Of a stretch of 64,000 bases of DNA, positions 21,998 to 61,631 are shown piece by piece. The DNA is from Fimbriiglobus ruber. GTDB lineage: Bacteria > Planctomycetota > Planctomycetia > Gemmatales > Gemmataceae. Location: NCBI RefSeq assembly GCF_002197845.1, contig NZ_NIDE01000019.1, positions 434,001 to 498,000 on the forward strand, read 5' to 3'. The notes beneath the pieces were generated by a model. It was not told the origin of the DNA and did not search any database. It saw only the letters and a program-made list of their open reading frames with translations. Numbering within the stretch: position 1 is the first letter of the stretch; the number at the start of each line of letters is the position of its first letter. A program made the position numbers and the translations under genes.

Positions 21998-24900
21998 ATG
22001 CCCGCACTTTGCTTTCCCAATTCCGACGCCTTGCGGCTCGCTCTCGCGTCCGGGATCATCCCTCCGGAAGTGGCCCGGGAAGCGGTTCGCGCCGCGGTCG
22101 ACGAGAACGGCCGCGTCTGGGTCGAGATGCCGGACGATTTTCCGAGAGACTCGTCTTCCGCGCTCACCCGGATCGGCGTGACCCTGCACGGCCCCGGGAC
22201 TGGCCCGGCCGCCCGGGACTACACCCACTGGGCCGAACTCCTCCCGCTCCGGTCCCACCCCGCGATCGACTTTCGGGGTGAGGTACTCGTCGACGTACCA
22301 GATTCGGCACTCGCGCGTCTGGTCGGCGAGATCCGGCGGGTCCGCCCCCAACCGATCGCCGTTCGCATGCTCCCGGAGACCGGCCGCGGGTGGATCCTCG
22401 TCCGCGATCCACCGCTGTACACGGTCCTCGGACTTTCGCCCGAGCCGACTGACTCGGGGTCCGAGGGGCGGGCGGAAGTCTTTTTCGAGCAGGCTCCGCG
22501 GGTCTGGGTTCTCGCCGGGTGGCATCACCCGCTCGATAGTCACCTCTCGGCCCCGGGCGGGACCGTGGCCCTCGTTCGCCCCGGCCAAGAGTGGGAGTAC
22601 GTACCCGACGAACCGTTTAACCTGGCACGCGACGGCTTCGCACTTTCCGCCGGGACACAGATCGGGCGAACCGATCCCGCCGCTACGGTGGTGTTGACTA
22701 CCAAACTTTCTCTGACGCGCACACAACAGACGTCGTCGGCTACGGAGTCCCTGTGGGTACTCCCGGGCGAGCCGGCCGAAACGCTGGCCGAACTCGCGCG
22801 CGATACCGACGAGCAGTTGCTCCGGCGGTTCCGGGCTTGCGTGTTAACGAGCCCGCAAGGAAAAGTCACCGTCGTCCGGGCGGCCGCCACCGGGAAGGGA
22901 TCGCCCCCCGTTCTCTCGGCCGCCACGCGCGGGTACGTTCCGCACACGGCGCTTTCCAATTTGTACCTTCAACCCGGCACGTGTTTGTCCCCGGCAGTTC
23001 GCCCCCAGGGGCTCGCCAAATTGTTGGGCCTCACGCCGGACCTGATCGCGTGGGCGACTCCCGAAGACGGCGGGCGGTTTGCCGTCCACCGCGCGCCGGT
23101 GGCGTCGTTCCGAGCGGTCGCCGACTGGGTCTCCTATCGCGTGCCGACGAACGTCTCACTGGCGGTCGCCTACCAGTCGGCGAATTACTGGCAGGCCCCG
23201 GCGTACGTTCTCGCCGCCGACAAGGCTCCTGCCGTTCCTTCGCCCGTGCCGGCAGTCCCCCCCGCGGGCGACGCCTTGAAAAAGGACGCCGCGTCGGGCG
23301 ACCGCGAGGGGTGGATCTCGCGGTCGCTCGGAAAACTCGCGGGGCGCCTGATGCCGGGGGCGTCGCCGGGACGGATCAAGAATTCAAAACGGCGGTCGAC
23401 TCCGGCGGTTTCGGACGCCGAGCCGTCGGGTCGGGTCGGGGAAAAGCTCGCGTCGACGCAAGCGCTGTTGCTCGGCAACGAGTGGTCCGCCCGGCGGACG
23501 GCCCTGGAGCAACGGGTGCTCACAGACCTCCCGCGGTTGCCGCCCGCCGAGCGGACGCGCGTGTGGGTCGAACTCGCGGAAGTCTACTCGGCCGTCGGAT
23601 ACCCGGCCGACGCCGCGGTTTGCTGGCTGAACGCGGTGTGGGACAGCGACCCGCCGCCCGTGCCCTGGGTCGACAACTGGCTCCGAGCGGAAGCCAAGAC
23701 GGCGCGCGTCGCGAAGGGCGGGCGCGAGCCGGAAGTCGTGTTCCGGGCGGCGCCGGTCGCGGCCGCCCGCGTCGCGGCGGCCCACCTCGTCTGGGCCGCG
23801 GGTCAACCGACGCAGCCCGCGGAGACGGTCGCCCACCTGCCTCGTTTCCTCGCGCTGCTCGGGGAATACGGGGCGGAGATCCCGGCCCGCGCGCTCTGGC
23901 TGGCCCGGATCGCGGCCGCCCGCCTCAGCGACGGGGACGCCCTCGGGTTGGCCCGCTGTCGCGACCAGGTATTTCGGCGGCTCGTGGAGAAGGGGCCGGG
24001 GCTCGACCTCGACGCCCCGTCGTTCTTACGCTTCCGCGGGGGCATCGGGGGTGACCGATTCGTGACCGCCCGCGACTGGCTCGCCCGTGCCCGCGAGCCG
24101 GTCCACCGGTGGATCGCGCGGTTCGCCCACACGGGTCGCTTGCAGTGGGCGGGCATCGACGCGGAGACCGAGTGTACCACCGCCTACGCCGACCTTCTAT
24201 TTGCGTGGGGCCTGAGTAAGCTCGGGGATCGCTCGCGGTCGCGCGAGATGGAGGCGTCCGCGGGAGCCGTTCTCTCGCGGGTCGGCGGGCCGTCCGCCGA
24301 CCCGATGGTTCACCGCGTTCTCCGCGCCGCGTTCGCCGACCGGATCGCCGCCGCTCAGGACGGACGACCGGATCGCCCCGGACTGCCGCTCGACGCCGCG
24401 GCCGATTTACTCCGGCTCGACGACCTCGGGCGGTATGCCGTCGAGAAGCTCCGCGCCCACTGCCGGATTCTCGAACCCGTCGACCTGATTAACCCGTACC
24501 GCAACCGCGACCTCGGCGGGTTCCTGGGCTCCGACGCACTCGGCGAACGACTCGCCCGGGTACTCGCCCGACCCGACCTGGCACCCGACCCGGGCGAGAT
24601 CCGCGGCTTGCTCGCGGACGCCGCGGCCGACCCGACGGCCTCCACCCTTCCGCGCGTGGTGTTCGTACTCGTCGAAACCGCTCCACGGCTCGACCCGCAA
24701 GTGTCGGCGGACGTACTCCCGCTCGTGCCCCGGGCGATCGAACTGACGCCCGAATGGGTCCGCGTCGCGGTGCAGACGACCGACCCCGCGGCCGTCACGA
24801 AACGGTTCGGGGCACGAATGATGACGGCCGCATGTCACGTCGCGGTCCTCGCCCACCTGCCCGACTCCTTCCGGCGGGCGGCCGACGCGGTCCTGATCGC

Positions 24901-25450
24901 GTGCGACACGCCCGGGTCGTCGTCCGTCCGGGCGGTCGAGCAGGTCGCGGGTCCATTCTTCCGCTGCCTCCGGCGGCTCGGCCTGCATTCGCACGCCAGC
25001 GAACTCCTCGGCCGACTGGACGAGGGGAACTCCCCCGGGCCGCGCGAACTCGGGCTCGCCGTCGGCTGGTTCGCCGCCGGGAACGAGGACGCCGGGAACC
25101 GAACGCTCAACGCGGCCCGCGACCGCCTGTTCGTGTCCGGCGTGCCGGACGACCGCGAGCGGACCGCCCTCGCACTGGCGTACGCCGTCGCGACCGGGCA
25201 CGCGCCGCCGCGGATCGCCCTCGGCCGTCTCGAAGAACTTTTCCTGCGGCTCGACATCATTTCGGCCCACGGGGCCACTAACCGCTACTTCACCCTCAAG
25301 CCGCTCGAACTCATCGACACGGTCATCCGCGCGGTCGTGAGCGACGACTTCTGTCTCGGCCCCGGCGTGCGCGGGTGGCTGGACGACGACGAATTCCTTA
25401 TCCGCCGCCGGGTCACGCGCGACTTGGCGGCCGTTCTCGGGGAACAGTGA
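21998..25450 (+). CDS. Large two-part protein, candidate component of a MoxR ternary system
   Basis: 1150 residues, ATG 21998. Residues 1-400 are beta-rich and contain RVWVLAGWHHPLDSHL and VALVRPGQEWEYVPDEPF, a pattern I associate with the bpX-type domains of MoxR-vWA-beta-propeller systems described by comparative genomics; this recall is not verified. Residues of about 405-480 are a Pro/Ala/Ser-rich, charged linker. Residues 480-1150 are almost wholly helical with Arg/Ala/Leu repeats (ARALWLARIAAARLSDGDALGLAR; LDAPSFLRFRG), resembling an alpha-solenoid. No enzyme motif, signal peptide or membrane segment was seen. A MoxR ATPase gene follows on the same strand after 546 bp. Likely a cytoplasmic scaffold or client-recognition protein for that ATPase; otherwise unknown. 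Confidence 0.6.
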   Translation: MPALCFPNSDALRLALASGIIPPEVAREAVRAAVDENGRVWVEMPDDFPRDSSSALTRIGVTLHGPGTGPAARDYTHWAELLPLRSHPAIDFRGEVLVDVPDSALARLVGEIRRVRPQPIAVRMLPETGRGWILVRDPPLYTVLGLSPEPTDSGSEGRAEVFFEQAPRVWVLAGWHHPLDSHLSAPGGTVALVRPGQEWEYVPDEPFNLARDGFALSAGTQIGRTDPAATVVLTTKLSLTRTQQTSSATESLWVLPGEPAETLAELARDTDEQLLRRFRACVLTSPQGKVTVVRAAATGKGSPPVLSAATRGYVPHTALSNLYLQPGTCLSPAVRPQGLAKLLGLTPDLIAWATPEDGGRFAVHRAPVASFRAVADWVSYRVPTNVSLAVAYQSANYWQAPAYVLAADKAPAVPSPVPAVPPAGDALKKDAASGDREGWISRSLGKLAGRLMPGASPGRIKNSKRRSTPAVSDAEPSGRVGEKLASTQALLLGNEWSARRTALEQRVLTDLPRLPPAERTRVWVELAEVYSAVGYPADAAVCWLNAVWDSDPPPVPWVDNWLRAEAKTARVAKGGREPEVVFRAAPVAAARVAAAHLVWAAGQPTQPAETVAHLPRFLALLGEYGAEIPARALWLARIAAARLSDGDALGLARCRDQVFRRLVEKGPGLDLDAPSFLRFRGGIGGDRFVTARDWLARAREPVHRWIARFAHTGRLQWAGIDAETECTTAYADLLFAWGLSKLGDRSRSREMEASAGAVLSRVGGPSADPMVHRVLRAAFADRIAAAQDGRPDRPGLPLDAAADLLRLDDLGRYAVEKLRAHCRILEPVDLINPYRNRDLGGFLGSDALGERLARVLARPDLAPDPGEIRGLLADAAADPTASTLPRVVFVLVETAPRLDPQVSADVLPLVPRAIELTPEWVRVAVQTTDPAAVTKRFGARMMTAACHVAVLAHLPDSFRRAADAVLIACDTPGSSSVRAVEQVAGPFFRCLRRLGLHSHASELLGRLDEGNSPGPRELGLAVGWFAAGNEDAGNRTLNAARDRLFVSGVPDDRERTALALAYAVATGHAPPRIALGRLEELFLRLDIISAHGATNRYFTLKPLELIDTVIRAVVSDDFCLGPGVRGWLDDDEFLIRRRVTRDLAAVLGEQ

Positions 25451-25522
25451 GGGACTTGCCCTCTGTCCTGCGATCGCGGCTGTCGTCGGCTGTCGGGTGG
25501 CTCGGGATTCCAGGGAGGGCGG

Positions 25523-25841
25523 CTTGGGGCTCGGCCCCAAACCCCGCCGGAGGGGTCGGACCCCTCCGGACCTCCTCACTTGCTCCCGACCCGCGGACGA
25601 ATCCCAGAGCGGATTCGTCCGCGGGTCGGGAGCAGGGGCCGGGGTTGATTGCGGCGGGAAGACATCGACGGTTCGCGAGGTGAGAAGACATCGACGGTTC
25701 GCTCGCTTCAAGTTTGGGCAACAAACGTCTCCGCGAGCGATCCGTGGGCCGATCCGCTTTGGGATCGGCCCACGGATCGGGAGCAGTGGGAGGTCCGGAG
25801 GGGTCCGACCCCTCCGGCGGGGTTTGGGGCCGAGCCCCAAG
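25523..25841. repeat. Composite inverted repeat with covarying hairpins
   Basis: Arms 25523-25575 and 25789-25841 are 53-bp exact reverse complements. Each arm contains two palindromes, TTGGGGC-TCG-GCCCCAA and CCGGAGGGGTC-G-GACCCCTCCGG. Just inside each arm is a long hairpin: 25582-25604 with 25611-25633 (23-bp perfect stem, loop CAGAGC) and 25738-25755 with 25762-25779 (18-bp perfect stem; loop CAAAGC when read in the same direction). Five stem pairs differ between the two hairpins and all five are compensated. No coding potential; it lies between the 1150-residue protein and MoxR genes. Confidence 0.85.
25658..25702. repeat. 19-bp direct repeat, two copies
   Basis: GAAGACATCGACGGTTCGC occurs at 25658-25676 and again at 25684-25702, a 26-bp step. 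It sits in the centre of the composite inverted repeat, between its two long hairpins. Confidence 0.85.
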
Positions 25842-25996
25842 ACATCACCCCACAAAAACCATCCACTTGACCAGACACCCAGGCATTCCTCCCCCGATCC
25901 CCCGAAGGAACAGTAGTCCCAGATTCCTTTCGCCGCGACGACTCCTTACAATTCCCACTCCTGATAACGTTCGGCCGCGCCGAGGTGTTCGTAAAC

Positions 25997-27022
25997 ATGG
26001 TGGCAAAGACTCATTCCGTCGAAGACATGTCCCTGGCCGACTTGCAGGTCGAAGCCGAAGACGTCCGCAAGCGGATTAACCGTTTCCGCCAGTCGCTGAG
26101 CCGGTTTTTCGTGAACAAGCAGGAGATCATCGACCTGATGTGCCTGGCGGCCGTCGCCCAGGAACCGCTCCTCCTCGTCGGGCCGCCGGGGACGGCCAAG
26201 TCCGACCTGGTGTTGAAGTTCAAGGACGCGATCGGGGTGGAGCAGGGGGACTACTTTGAATACATGCTCACGCGGTTCACCGAGCCGAGCGAGATCATCG
26301 GCGCCATCGACATCAAGGAACTGCGGGACGGCCGCTACCTCCGCCGCAAGGAAGGCAAGCTGCCGACCGCGAAGCTCGTGTTCCTGGACGAAATCTTCAA
26401 GTCGAACTCGGCGATCCTGAACATCCTGCTCACCATCATCAACGAGCGGAAGTTTTACCAGGAAGGTAAGCCGGAACCCGTACCCCTGCGAATCCTGTTC
26501 GCGGCGACGAACGAGATCCCCGAACAGGGCGAACTCGCGGCCCTCAAGGACCGCTTCGTACTCAAAGTGCAGAGCCGGCCGGTGCAAGACGATCACTTCC
26601 AGGAATTGATCGACTACGGTCTCCAGTCCGAGACGTATAAGGGTCTGAACCAAAAGCCGTGGGCCGAAGGCCACTGCTCGCTCGACGACTTTTTGAAGGC
26701 GAACCGGTATCTCACTTTCGTATTCGCTCGCAAACACACCGACACCAACGGGGACGAGCAAAACGACCGCGAGACCTTCTTCCCCGCCGACGTGTTCCGG
26801 GAGTTCCAGCGGCTCGTGAAAACCCTCGTCCGCGAGGACAAAATTTTCATCAGCGACCGGAAGTTGGTCAAACTCTACAAGCTTTTCCGCGTCCGCGCCT
26901 GGCTATTCTCCGGCGGCACGGTGAGCCGCGACGATCTTCGGTTACTTGCTTATCTGGGTGAGACGCACCAGGAGATCGAACACCTTCGCGAGAAGGTGCC
27001 GAACCTGCTGGGCGACGTGTGA
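25997..27022 (+). CDS. MoxR/RavA-type AAA+ ATPase
   Basis: 341 residues from ATG 25997, preferred to an upstream GTG because GAGG lies at a usable distance. Features: a helical start (LQVEAEDVRKRINRFRQSLSRFFVNKQEIIDLM), Walker A GPPGTAKS near 61, FTEPSEIIGAIDIKEL, Walker B LVFLDEIFK, the NxxLL helix SAILNILLTIINERKFY, sensor 1 FAATNE, and the arginine-finger region LKDRFVLKVQ. The C-terminal lid is extended and helical. MoxR proteins act as chaperones or remodelers, normally with a vWA protein. Here no vWA gene follows: the next gene is convergent and begins 7 bp away. The upstream 1150-residue protein is the likely partner. Confidence 0.92.
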   Translation: MVAKTHSVEDMSLADLQVEAEDVRKRINRFRQSLSRFFVNKQEIIDLMCLAAVAQEPLLLVGPPGTAKSDLVLKFKDAIGVEQGDYFEYMLTRFTEPSEIIGAIDIKELRDGRYLRRKEGKLPTAKLVFLDEIFKSNSAILNILLTIINERKFYQEGKPEPVPLRILFAATNEIPEQGELAALKDRFVLKVQSRPVQDDHFQELIDYGLQSETYKGLNQKPWAEGHCSLDDFLKANRYLTFVFARKHTDTNGDEQNDRETFFPADVFREFQRLVKTLVREDKIFISDRKLVKLYKLFRVRAWLFSGGTVSRDDLRLLAYLGETHQEIEHLREKVPNLLGDV

Positions 27023-28549: not shown

Positions 28550-28636
28550 CACGGATCAACACGGATGGACGCGGATCAGAAAAGATCAAACCTCTCTGAC
28601 TTTTCTCTGATCTGTGTTCATCCGTGTTGATCCGTG
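28550..28636. repeat. Inverted 10-bp-phased CACGGAT repeat
   Basis: Left arm 28550-28579 has three 10-base units (ACGGATCAAC, ACGGATGGAC, GCGGATCAG). Right arm 28607-28636 is its reverse complement except three positions, each of which would be a G-U pair in RNA. The loop is 27 bases. The structure could end transcription of the isomerase gene. Related copies lie at 40912, 59217, 61428 and 63701. Confidence 0.75.
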
Positions 28637-42478: not shown

Positions 42479-42584
42479 TGTAGGGTCCGCTGTGCGGACC
42501 GGTTATTCAAACGCCCCGCGATGCGATGCCGGATTCGGGGCCCACGACCGACCGCAATAACCGGTCCGCACAGCGGACCCTACA
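42479..42584. repeat. REPIN-like element, copy 1
   Basis: 106 bp with perfect 29-bp terminal inverted repeats (42479-42507 and 42556-42584). Each terminus contains the small palindrome GGTCCGC-TGT-GCGGACC followed by GGTTATT, so it resembles two REP sequences in opposite orientation. No coding capacity. A second copy lies at 61497-61610 with a different centre. Confidence 0.85.
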
Positions 42585-59216: not shown

Positions 59217-59399
59217 TGAACACGGATGAACACAGATCAGAAAAGAATATTCACCGCAGAGGGCACGAGAGGGCGCGGAGGTAAAACAGGAAAGCTCTCA
59301 AACGGCAAAAAAAAGTGATCGTCTTAGTATTTCCTCTGCGCCCTCTCGTGCCCTCTGCGGTGAATATTCTTTTCTGATCTGCGTTCATCCGCTGCCAAG
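59217..59399. repeat. 58-bp inverted repeat built from two phased repeat families
   Basis: Arms 59224-59281 and 59333-59390 are 58-base reverse complements with two mismatches. Each arm joins the CACGGATGAA family to a CCGCAGAGGGCACGAGAGGG family. The 51-base loop contains an A-run (AAAAAAAA). It lies between the amine oxidase gene and the fusion protein gene, both on the minus strand. Confidence 0.85.
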
Positions 59400-61427: not shown

Positions 61428-61495
61428 TTAACACGGATGAACGCGGATCAGGAAGAGATCATGAGCCACGGATCAACACGGATGCACACGGATCA
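61428..61495. repeat. 10-bp-phased CACGGAT repeat, tandem form
   Basis: CCGCAGATTAACACGGATGAACGCGGATCAGG and, after a short gap, GCCACGGATCAACACGGATGCACACGGATCAG: two direct copies of the phased repeat without the inverted arm. It abuts the REPIN-like element at 61497. Confidence 0.7.
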
Positions 61496-61496
61496 G

Positions 61497-61610
61497 TTTT
61501 GTAGGGTCCGCTGTGCGGACCAGTTATTCCGAGCGTTGATCCTGCCTTCAATCCGTTGTCCCACCGCGGCGTGTTCAGAATAACCGGTCCGCACAGCGGA
61601 CCCTACAAAA
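61497..61610. repeat. REPIN-like element, copy 2
   Basis: 114 bp with 32-bp terminal inverted repeats (61497-61528 and 61579-61610) that differ at one position. The ends match the element at 42479-42584, including the inner palindrome GGTCCGC-TGT-GCGGACC, while the central 50 bp is unrelated. No coding capacity. Confidence 0.85.
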
Positions 61611-61631
61611 CTGCGGCTAATGTTCCTTGGT

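Follow-up and report, generated by a model that had tools for sequence, protein, structure and literature searches.

The window, which is the whole 64,000-nucleotide stretch of Fimbriiglobus ruber DNA analysed here (contig NZ_NIDE01000019.1, positions 434,001 to 498,000), carries an inverted element between two genes on the forward strand. The initial annotation held that these genes probably work together. The domain assignments support this: fvmX7 and bpMoxR are related 'ternary system' families, and the two genes are adjacent in two congeners. The element itself had been described as 53-bp inverted arms that each lead into a long hairpin, every half being a chain of three hairpins, and this layout was confirmed as follows (strand is given where one was assigned).

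21998–25450, + strand: upstream gene, 1,150 amino acids, Pfam fvmX7 (FtsH ternary system domain X7)
25451–25522: outer flank 'Q' of the putative mobile unit, starting from the upstream-gene stop codon (25448–25450); conserved among copies and missing at the congeners' empty site
25523–25575, + strand: left terminal inverted arm, 53 bp, 100% complementary to 25789–25841
25524–25540: left hairpin 1, TTGGGGC-TCG-GCCCCAA, then the linker ACCCCG
25547–25569: left hairpin 2, CCGGAGGGGTCGGACCCCTCCGG
25581–25634, including an inward extension: left long hairpin 3, class B, loop CAGAGC at 25605–25610
25635–25737: variable interior, with a 24-bp direct repeat at 25653–25676 and 25679–25702
25738–25779: right long hairpin 3, class A, 18-bp stem, loop CAAAGC read inward
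25789–25841, − strand: right terminal inverted arm, 53 bp
25795–25817: right hairpin 2
25824–25840: right hairpin 1 (TTGGGGC-TCG-GCCCCAA)
25842–25915: outer flank 'P' of the putative mobile unit, about 45 bp of it conserved among copies; the outer limit is uncertain (about 25890–25931 by empty-site comparison)
25946–25953, + strand: TTACAATT, promoter-like by eye, at the same gap in both congeners and spared by the insertion
25985–27022, + strand: downstream gene, 345 amino acids, Pfam bpMoxR (MoxR ATPase)

Hairpin 2 is an 11-bp palindrome inside each arm, and it is followed inward by the long hairpin, whose 18-bp stem and 6-nt loop occupy 25587–25628 on the left. There a copy of the outer arm, GGGAGC in place of GCTCGC, extends the palindrome further inward. 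All five differences between the two halves within the shared 18 bp are paired, around the loops CAGAGC and CAAAGC, as had been claimed from the letters. The second-palindrome motif matched the window four times (two palindromes on both strands) against 0.16 matches expected, and none of 100 shuffles reached four. The folding z-score of the element was −17.5 as RNA and −16.6 as DNA. The interval 25523–25841 covers the inverted core only; conserved outer flanks lengthen the unit on both sides.

Other inverted repeats occur in the window. Two copies of one with TGTAGGGTCCGCTGTGCGGACC-type arms, unrelated to the element, lie at 42479–42584 and 61494–61613. Those at 59223–59391 and 28550–28636 have a CACGGAT-type sequence at or beside them, and the arms of the one at 59223 are 65 nt long and 94% complementary.

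The element is dispersed in the genome

The initial annotation had proposed a covariance-model search of the parent genome. This search gave 114 matches in 12.36 Mb (20 contigs), among them 71 strong halves (scores of at least 94.7 bits) that make up 34 two-armed elements and three lone halves. The remaining matches scored about 52 bits or less, many being the opposite strand of the same elements. Scoring covered 150 of the 10,684 first-look candidates, so that weak copies may be absent from this tally. The model was built on an alignment, A1, of 69 halves drawn from a DNA search of the same genome. Excluded from it were L023, which duplicates L022, L069, which represents the L010 locus, and L068, which is degenerate. 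The L022/L023 locus is present twice, either through duplication or as an assembly effect.

The inverted cores measure 281–375 bp in 30 two-armed elements and 412, 446, 921 and 922 bp in the other four, whose interior open reading frames are short (L062 and L064 included); the interior varies in length and sequence from copy to copy. Reading frames of the two longest cores, L065 and L061, had no Pfam match up to an E value of 0.1. A 162-residue frame in L065 (1415–1903) and an AT-rich stretch with reading frames in L061 (1270–2046) lie between or run into the arms, and are possibly cargo or the remains of an autonomous element. Outside the core, about 72 bp on side Q and about 45 bp on side P are conserved in many copies, and past these flanks the neighbouring sequence is unlike among copies, except at the duplicated L022/L023 locus. 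On the left of L028 (about 1340–1500), a unit of about 45 bp made up of outer flank and hairpin 1 is repeated in tandem, beside an intact element.

The long stems fall into two classes, A and B, and 27 of 33 two-armed elements pair one of each, which upholds the earlier statement that the two halves are not merely a recent duplication. Where core orientation was checked relative to flank P (21 elements), the A stem lay beside P in 12 and the B stem in nine; both orientations would be expected if the core sometimes inverts through recombination between its arms.

Long stems vary in sequence but stay paired

Long stems were perfect in 59 of the 69 halves, counted per hairpin, with seven carrying one mismatch and three carrying more; among the perfect ones, that of L061 is a shortened, rearranged hairpin. 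Twelve of the 17 aligned pairs in the long stem were doubly changed (236 cells), and only 14 cells were unpaired; there were no one-sided changes that left a standard pair and no G-U cells. Over the three helices together, 98.8% of 2,257 cells were standard pairs and one was a wobble, and 272 cells were doubly changed against 69 in shuffles. For the pairing, the doubly changed pairs or cells and the score alike, none of 500 shuffles came up to the real alignment, and pairing fell to at most 57% when the partner was shifted by one base. The number of further pair types in this test did not exceed that in shuffles (30 versus 34). Thus, covariation seen between two halves in the window was no two-copy accident, and the many copies did not show the random, unpaired stem changes that the initial annotation had named as evidence against it. 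Among the rare mismatches in all three stems of A1, A-C or C-A exceeded G-T or T-G by 11 to 1 with halves read inward, a strand asymmetry.

Mean column diversity was high in the stem centre (0.39), the inner tail (0.43) and the outer flank (0.40), and low in the hairpin-1 arm (0.03), the linker (0.014), the GCTCCC foot (0.01) and the stem tip (0.007). It was 0.10 in the hairpin-2 arm, 0.14 in the long-stem loop and 0.45 in the hairpin-2 loop, which is free. The long-stem centre is therefore constrained in pairing, not in sequence. The parts conserved in sequence are hairpin 1, the hairpin-2 stem, the linkers (ACCCCG in 64 of 69 halves), the GCTCCC foot, the long-stem tip and most of the loop. 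The loop, reported as conserved between the two window hairpins, was largely kept across the 69 halves (CAAAGC in 35, CAGAGC in 23, others in 11). This conservation of loop and stem tip shows that selection or recognition is also at work.

One explanation dispenses with independent covariation and supposes that copies exchanged a small number of old hairpin versions. The two stem classes, one of each in most elements, would fit it. The 69 halves carry 51 distinct stems, however. When the 32 of these that are perfect and free of gaps are joined in a minimum spanning tree, at least 41 compensated pair changes are required, and 24 of the 31 steps are single pair changes. These results largely refute the shuffling of old versions, which we consider extremely improbable. 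Symmetric one-pair deletions also occur in the long stems.

Covariation far above shuffles, together with the extreme folding energy, could also indicate that the element is transcribed and acts as RNA. Several observations speak against selection for RNA structure. Only the one cell in 2,257 was a wobble, and the compensated changes comprised 24 transversions and 17 transitions; a route through G-U intermediates would yield transitions, and so the lack of G-U pairs in the long stem and the majority of transversions argue against it. Any transcript through the element would contain the two halves in opposite senses, and its two 53-nt arms are predicted to pair with each other. Among known structured RNAs, Rfam 15 gave no match in 10 loci at the gathering threshold. 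On balance, an RNA function seems very unlikely to us.

Halves with inverted motifs look like arm-to-arm copies

The motif just inside the long stem is GCTCGC in 62 of 69 halves. In five others (L001, L022, L024, L061 and L064) it is GGGAGC, the exact reverse complement of the outer GCTCCC, so that three bases immediately beyond the stem are changed. One- or two-step intermediates were not found, and the other inner variants, GCTCAC and GTTCGC, are no steps towards GGGAGC. The five halves carry different stems and tails, and it is by these differing backgrounds, rather than by a tree, that we judged the five copying events to be independent. L022 has, in addition, an inverted loop. One of the five events lies in the left half of the window copy, L001. 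Copying in the reverse direction was seen in none of the 69 halves, whose outer motif is GCTCCC in 67, ACTCCC in one and GCTCTC in one.

The GGGAGC halves resemble the traces expected of strand switching on a hairpin template. Passages in PMC8794818 attribute multi-base compensatory changes, and rarely an inversion of the loop, to template switching, and rate the evidence that this process maintains short stems as circumstantial. Taken together, the arm copying and the inverted loop suggest that pairing is probably maintained in part by a mutational process at the DNA level and not by selection on RNA alone. The initial annotation had taken the paired changes to point to selection for structure. 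The covariation is real, but taken alone it does not prove selection.

A competing explanation invokes selection alone: a transposase or host protein would bind the DNA hairpin, extruded or as a single strand, in its perfect Watson-Crick form, compensating point mutations would be selected, and copying between arms would play no part. The long stem free of G-U cells and the 98.8% pairing over three helices would follow from it, and conservation of the loop, the stem tip and the GCTCCC foot is suggestive of recognition features. It leaves unexplained the joint copying of three bases in five of 69 halves and the inverted loop, and the three lone halves, a small sample, keep perfect stems. We regard this explanation as possible although improbable. 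Against arm copying, in turn, single-pair changes predominate in the tree, and these could also be obtained by selection acting on point mutations.

The window element occupies a site that is empty in congeners

At the window locus, the two other genomes of the genus have the gene pair but not the element. At the DNA level, identity to the congeners is 81–83% in the downstream gene and 68% in the upstream gene. The aligned blocks are 123–129 bp apart in the two congeners and 590–593 bp apart in the window genome. The extra DNA measures about 463–478 bp and runs from about 25426–25465 to 25892–25931 in the empty-site alignment, the exact breakpoints differing among near-equal alignments. These comparisons suggest a mobile unit of roughly 465 bp, larger than the inverted core, and we place its left end at the stop codon at 25448–25450. 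Because the extra DNA adjoins the stop codon and ends before the shared TTACAATT, the insertion spared the neighbouring genes and the presumed promoter.

Nearly all of the approximately 34 sites are intergenic according to a basic gene caller that had the window as its training set. Among 33 two-armed elements examined (L023 was left out), the neighbouring genes were in tandem at 21, divergent at nine and convergent at one, with one neighbour uncalled at two. The flanks of nine elements were too divergent to orient. In tandem elements with clear flanks, the P flank faced a gene start in 14 of 15 (p = 0.001), although for L010, one of these 14, the neighbour lies at a distance of 652 bp, and two further neighbours are more than 700 bp away.

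It is conceivable that the element is a regulatory cassette useful to the host, for example a terminator or insulator between genes, that spread and was kept for its effect on neighbours; the prevalence of co-directional gene pairs and the orientation of P towards gene starts would fit such a role. The same bias may, however, stem from insertion itself or from the removal of harmful insertions, and both congeners keep the window gene pair without a cassette. By eye, the hairpins lack an adjoining T-run, and the interiors are unlike among copies. We consider a regulatory role decidedly unlikely.

The element resembles MITEs and REPs, and no transposase linked to it was found in the genome

We call the element MITE/REP-like. 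Like a MITE, it is short, dispersed, non-coding and intergenic, without a transposase gene of its own, and has long terminal inverted repeats and, at the window locus, an empty site in both congeners. It differs from MITEs in that its arms are chains of three hairpins, one stem of which varies freely yet remains paired, and in that no parent transposon was identified: the 71 strong halves in this genome pair within about 0.9 kb or stand alone. In the flanks, whose outer ends are not sharp, no target-site duplication was evident by eye.

REPINs and BIMEs are extragenic palindromes, often paired inversely, and the element shares with REP, BIME and REPIN sequences its extragenic palindromes, frequent inverted pairing and presence in several phyla. 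By contrast with REPs, each half contains three hairpins with conserved linkers. The CGTC tag is present in 28 of 69 halves (AGTC in 14, TGTC in six, GGTC in five, others in 16); in matches from other genomes, the tag is AACC or GACC in 36 of 85. Passages in PMC3733652 distinguish GTAG and CGTC super-families of REPs, and note that CGTC repeats also occur without a dedicated transposase; the CGTC families described there have stems of 8–9 bp and loops of mostly 4–5 nt, whereas hairpin 1 has a 7-bp stem and a 3-nt loop. The element also resembles quasi-palindromes altered by template switching, in its multi-base compensatory changes and the loop inversion by arm copying; the cases in the relevant passages of PMC8794818 are rRNA and microRNA genes, whereas here a dispersed non-coding repeat is involved, with dozens of diverged copies.

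An associated transposase, whose presence the initial annotation had suggested checking, did not turn up in this genome, either in reading frames of the element or at Y1 transposase loci. Mobilization by a RAYT (Y1 transposase) was considered and rejected: the genome has three Y1_Tnp genes, and the only match to the repeat in their loci scored 11.6 bits (E = 0.21). Two of these loci, L222 and L223, have long inverted repeats of their own nearby, with arms of 77–78 nt that are unlike the element. A text search of the open-access literature for GGGGCTCTGCCCC, a scope outside which most subscription journals fall, returned no paper, and the open-access papers listed as containing short strings of the element were, by title and abstract, seemingly unrelated.

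Repeats of similar build occur in distant bacteria

The loop of hairpin 1 is TCT in 34 halves and TCG in 34, the window copy being of the TCG form. The 24-mer that starts the arm in its TCT form, TTGGGGCTCTGCCCCAAACCCCGC, from which the window copy is one base off, occurs exactly in at least 118 contig stretches; hosts among the matches listed include Clostridia, Synergistaceae, Acetobacteraceae, Desulfovibrio, Chloroflexi and Lentisphaerae. A second hairpin directly followed TTGGGGCTCTGCCCCAAACCCCGC in 42 of 84 usable matches, compared with a mean of 0.95 in 200 shuffles. We examined 80 of these loci, 20 of them from one Clostridiales MAG, and our own scan found inward-facing hairpin pairs at 15. 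Many TTGGGGCTCTGCCCCAAACCCCGC sites are thus single arms or were missed by the scan, and the full inverted plan is demonstrated for a minority. The covariance model fitted all nine loci tried (27.6 to 65.1 bits), partly by construction. At two loci, L154 and L171, no transposase was recognized by eye in the reading frames. In L154, which comes from a MAG with the title Turicibacter, reading frames resembling successive ATP-synthase genes or subunits have similarly styled hairpin chains between them.

Among relatives the distribution is patchy: only the window genome was positive for TTGGGGCTCTGCCCCAAACCCCGC among 294 sampled genomes of its phylum, and a DNA search of 58 other related genomes, with at most 12 first-look candidates scored in each, found none with the element. 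In 94 other genomes of the family (34 candidates scored per genome), the covariance model gave one weak match of 28.9 bits, L102, which by eye has two similar hairpins and a linker. Distant blastn searches of plasmid and phage collections gave no match.

A second family is a 228-bp repeat in a MAG titled Nitrosovibrio sp. Nv4 isolate HRS-HS12-bin-48 (G117, L224–L253). Forty of 198 candidate places were scored, and 27 copies were aligned from 30 loci, three having been dropped. The repeat shares the kind of outermost hairpin, the ACCCCGC linker, an inverted hairpin chain and a covarying long stem. In this 24-bp stem, 12 of 24 pairs were doubly changed and 96.7% of cells were paired, values that none of 500 shuffles reached. 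It has one central palindrome of 24 bp with a 26-nt loop, whereas the window family has two long hairpins. Seven of its 646 cells were G-U, and the strict exclusion of wobble therefore belongs to the window family and not to both. From their sequences, repeats of similar build occur in distant bacteria.

Discussion

We think it probable, by a modest margin over an even chance, that the element is a MITE/REP-like chain of hairpins that is moved in trans and whose long stem is kept paired in good part by copying between its arms. The element would be a non-autonomous, dispersed piece of DNA in which two chains of three hairpins stand in inverted orientation. A trans-acting factor, perhaps now lost, may recognize the conserved outer hairpins, linkers and loop and move the unit. 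Replication or repair within the hairpin would switch template, copying one arm onto the other, such that a mutation in one arm would soon be matched or erased and the stem would stay complementary at the DNA level. Selection for the Watson-Crick DNA hairpin may add to this effect.

A bolder interpretation is that these repeats represent a mobile class that crosses phyla, defined by an outer hairpin with the ACCCCGC linker at both ends and by nested hairpins. Such a class would move or be maintained through an obligatory hairpin intermediate, depend on an undescribed trans-acting enzyme and have its long stem rewritten in both arms at once each time it became a single-stranded hairpin. We put this forward as a speculation that is more likely wrong than right by a wide margin.

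Covariation is usually read as proof of a selected structure, whereas here pairing would be kept, at least in part, at the DNA level. Dozens of copies in one genome, with visible copying between arms, make mutational maintenance separable from selection within a single data set. The matching outer hairpin and linker across distant phyla, together with the second family, point to a wider class of elements.
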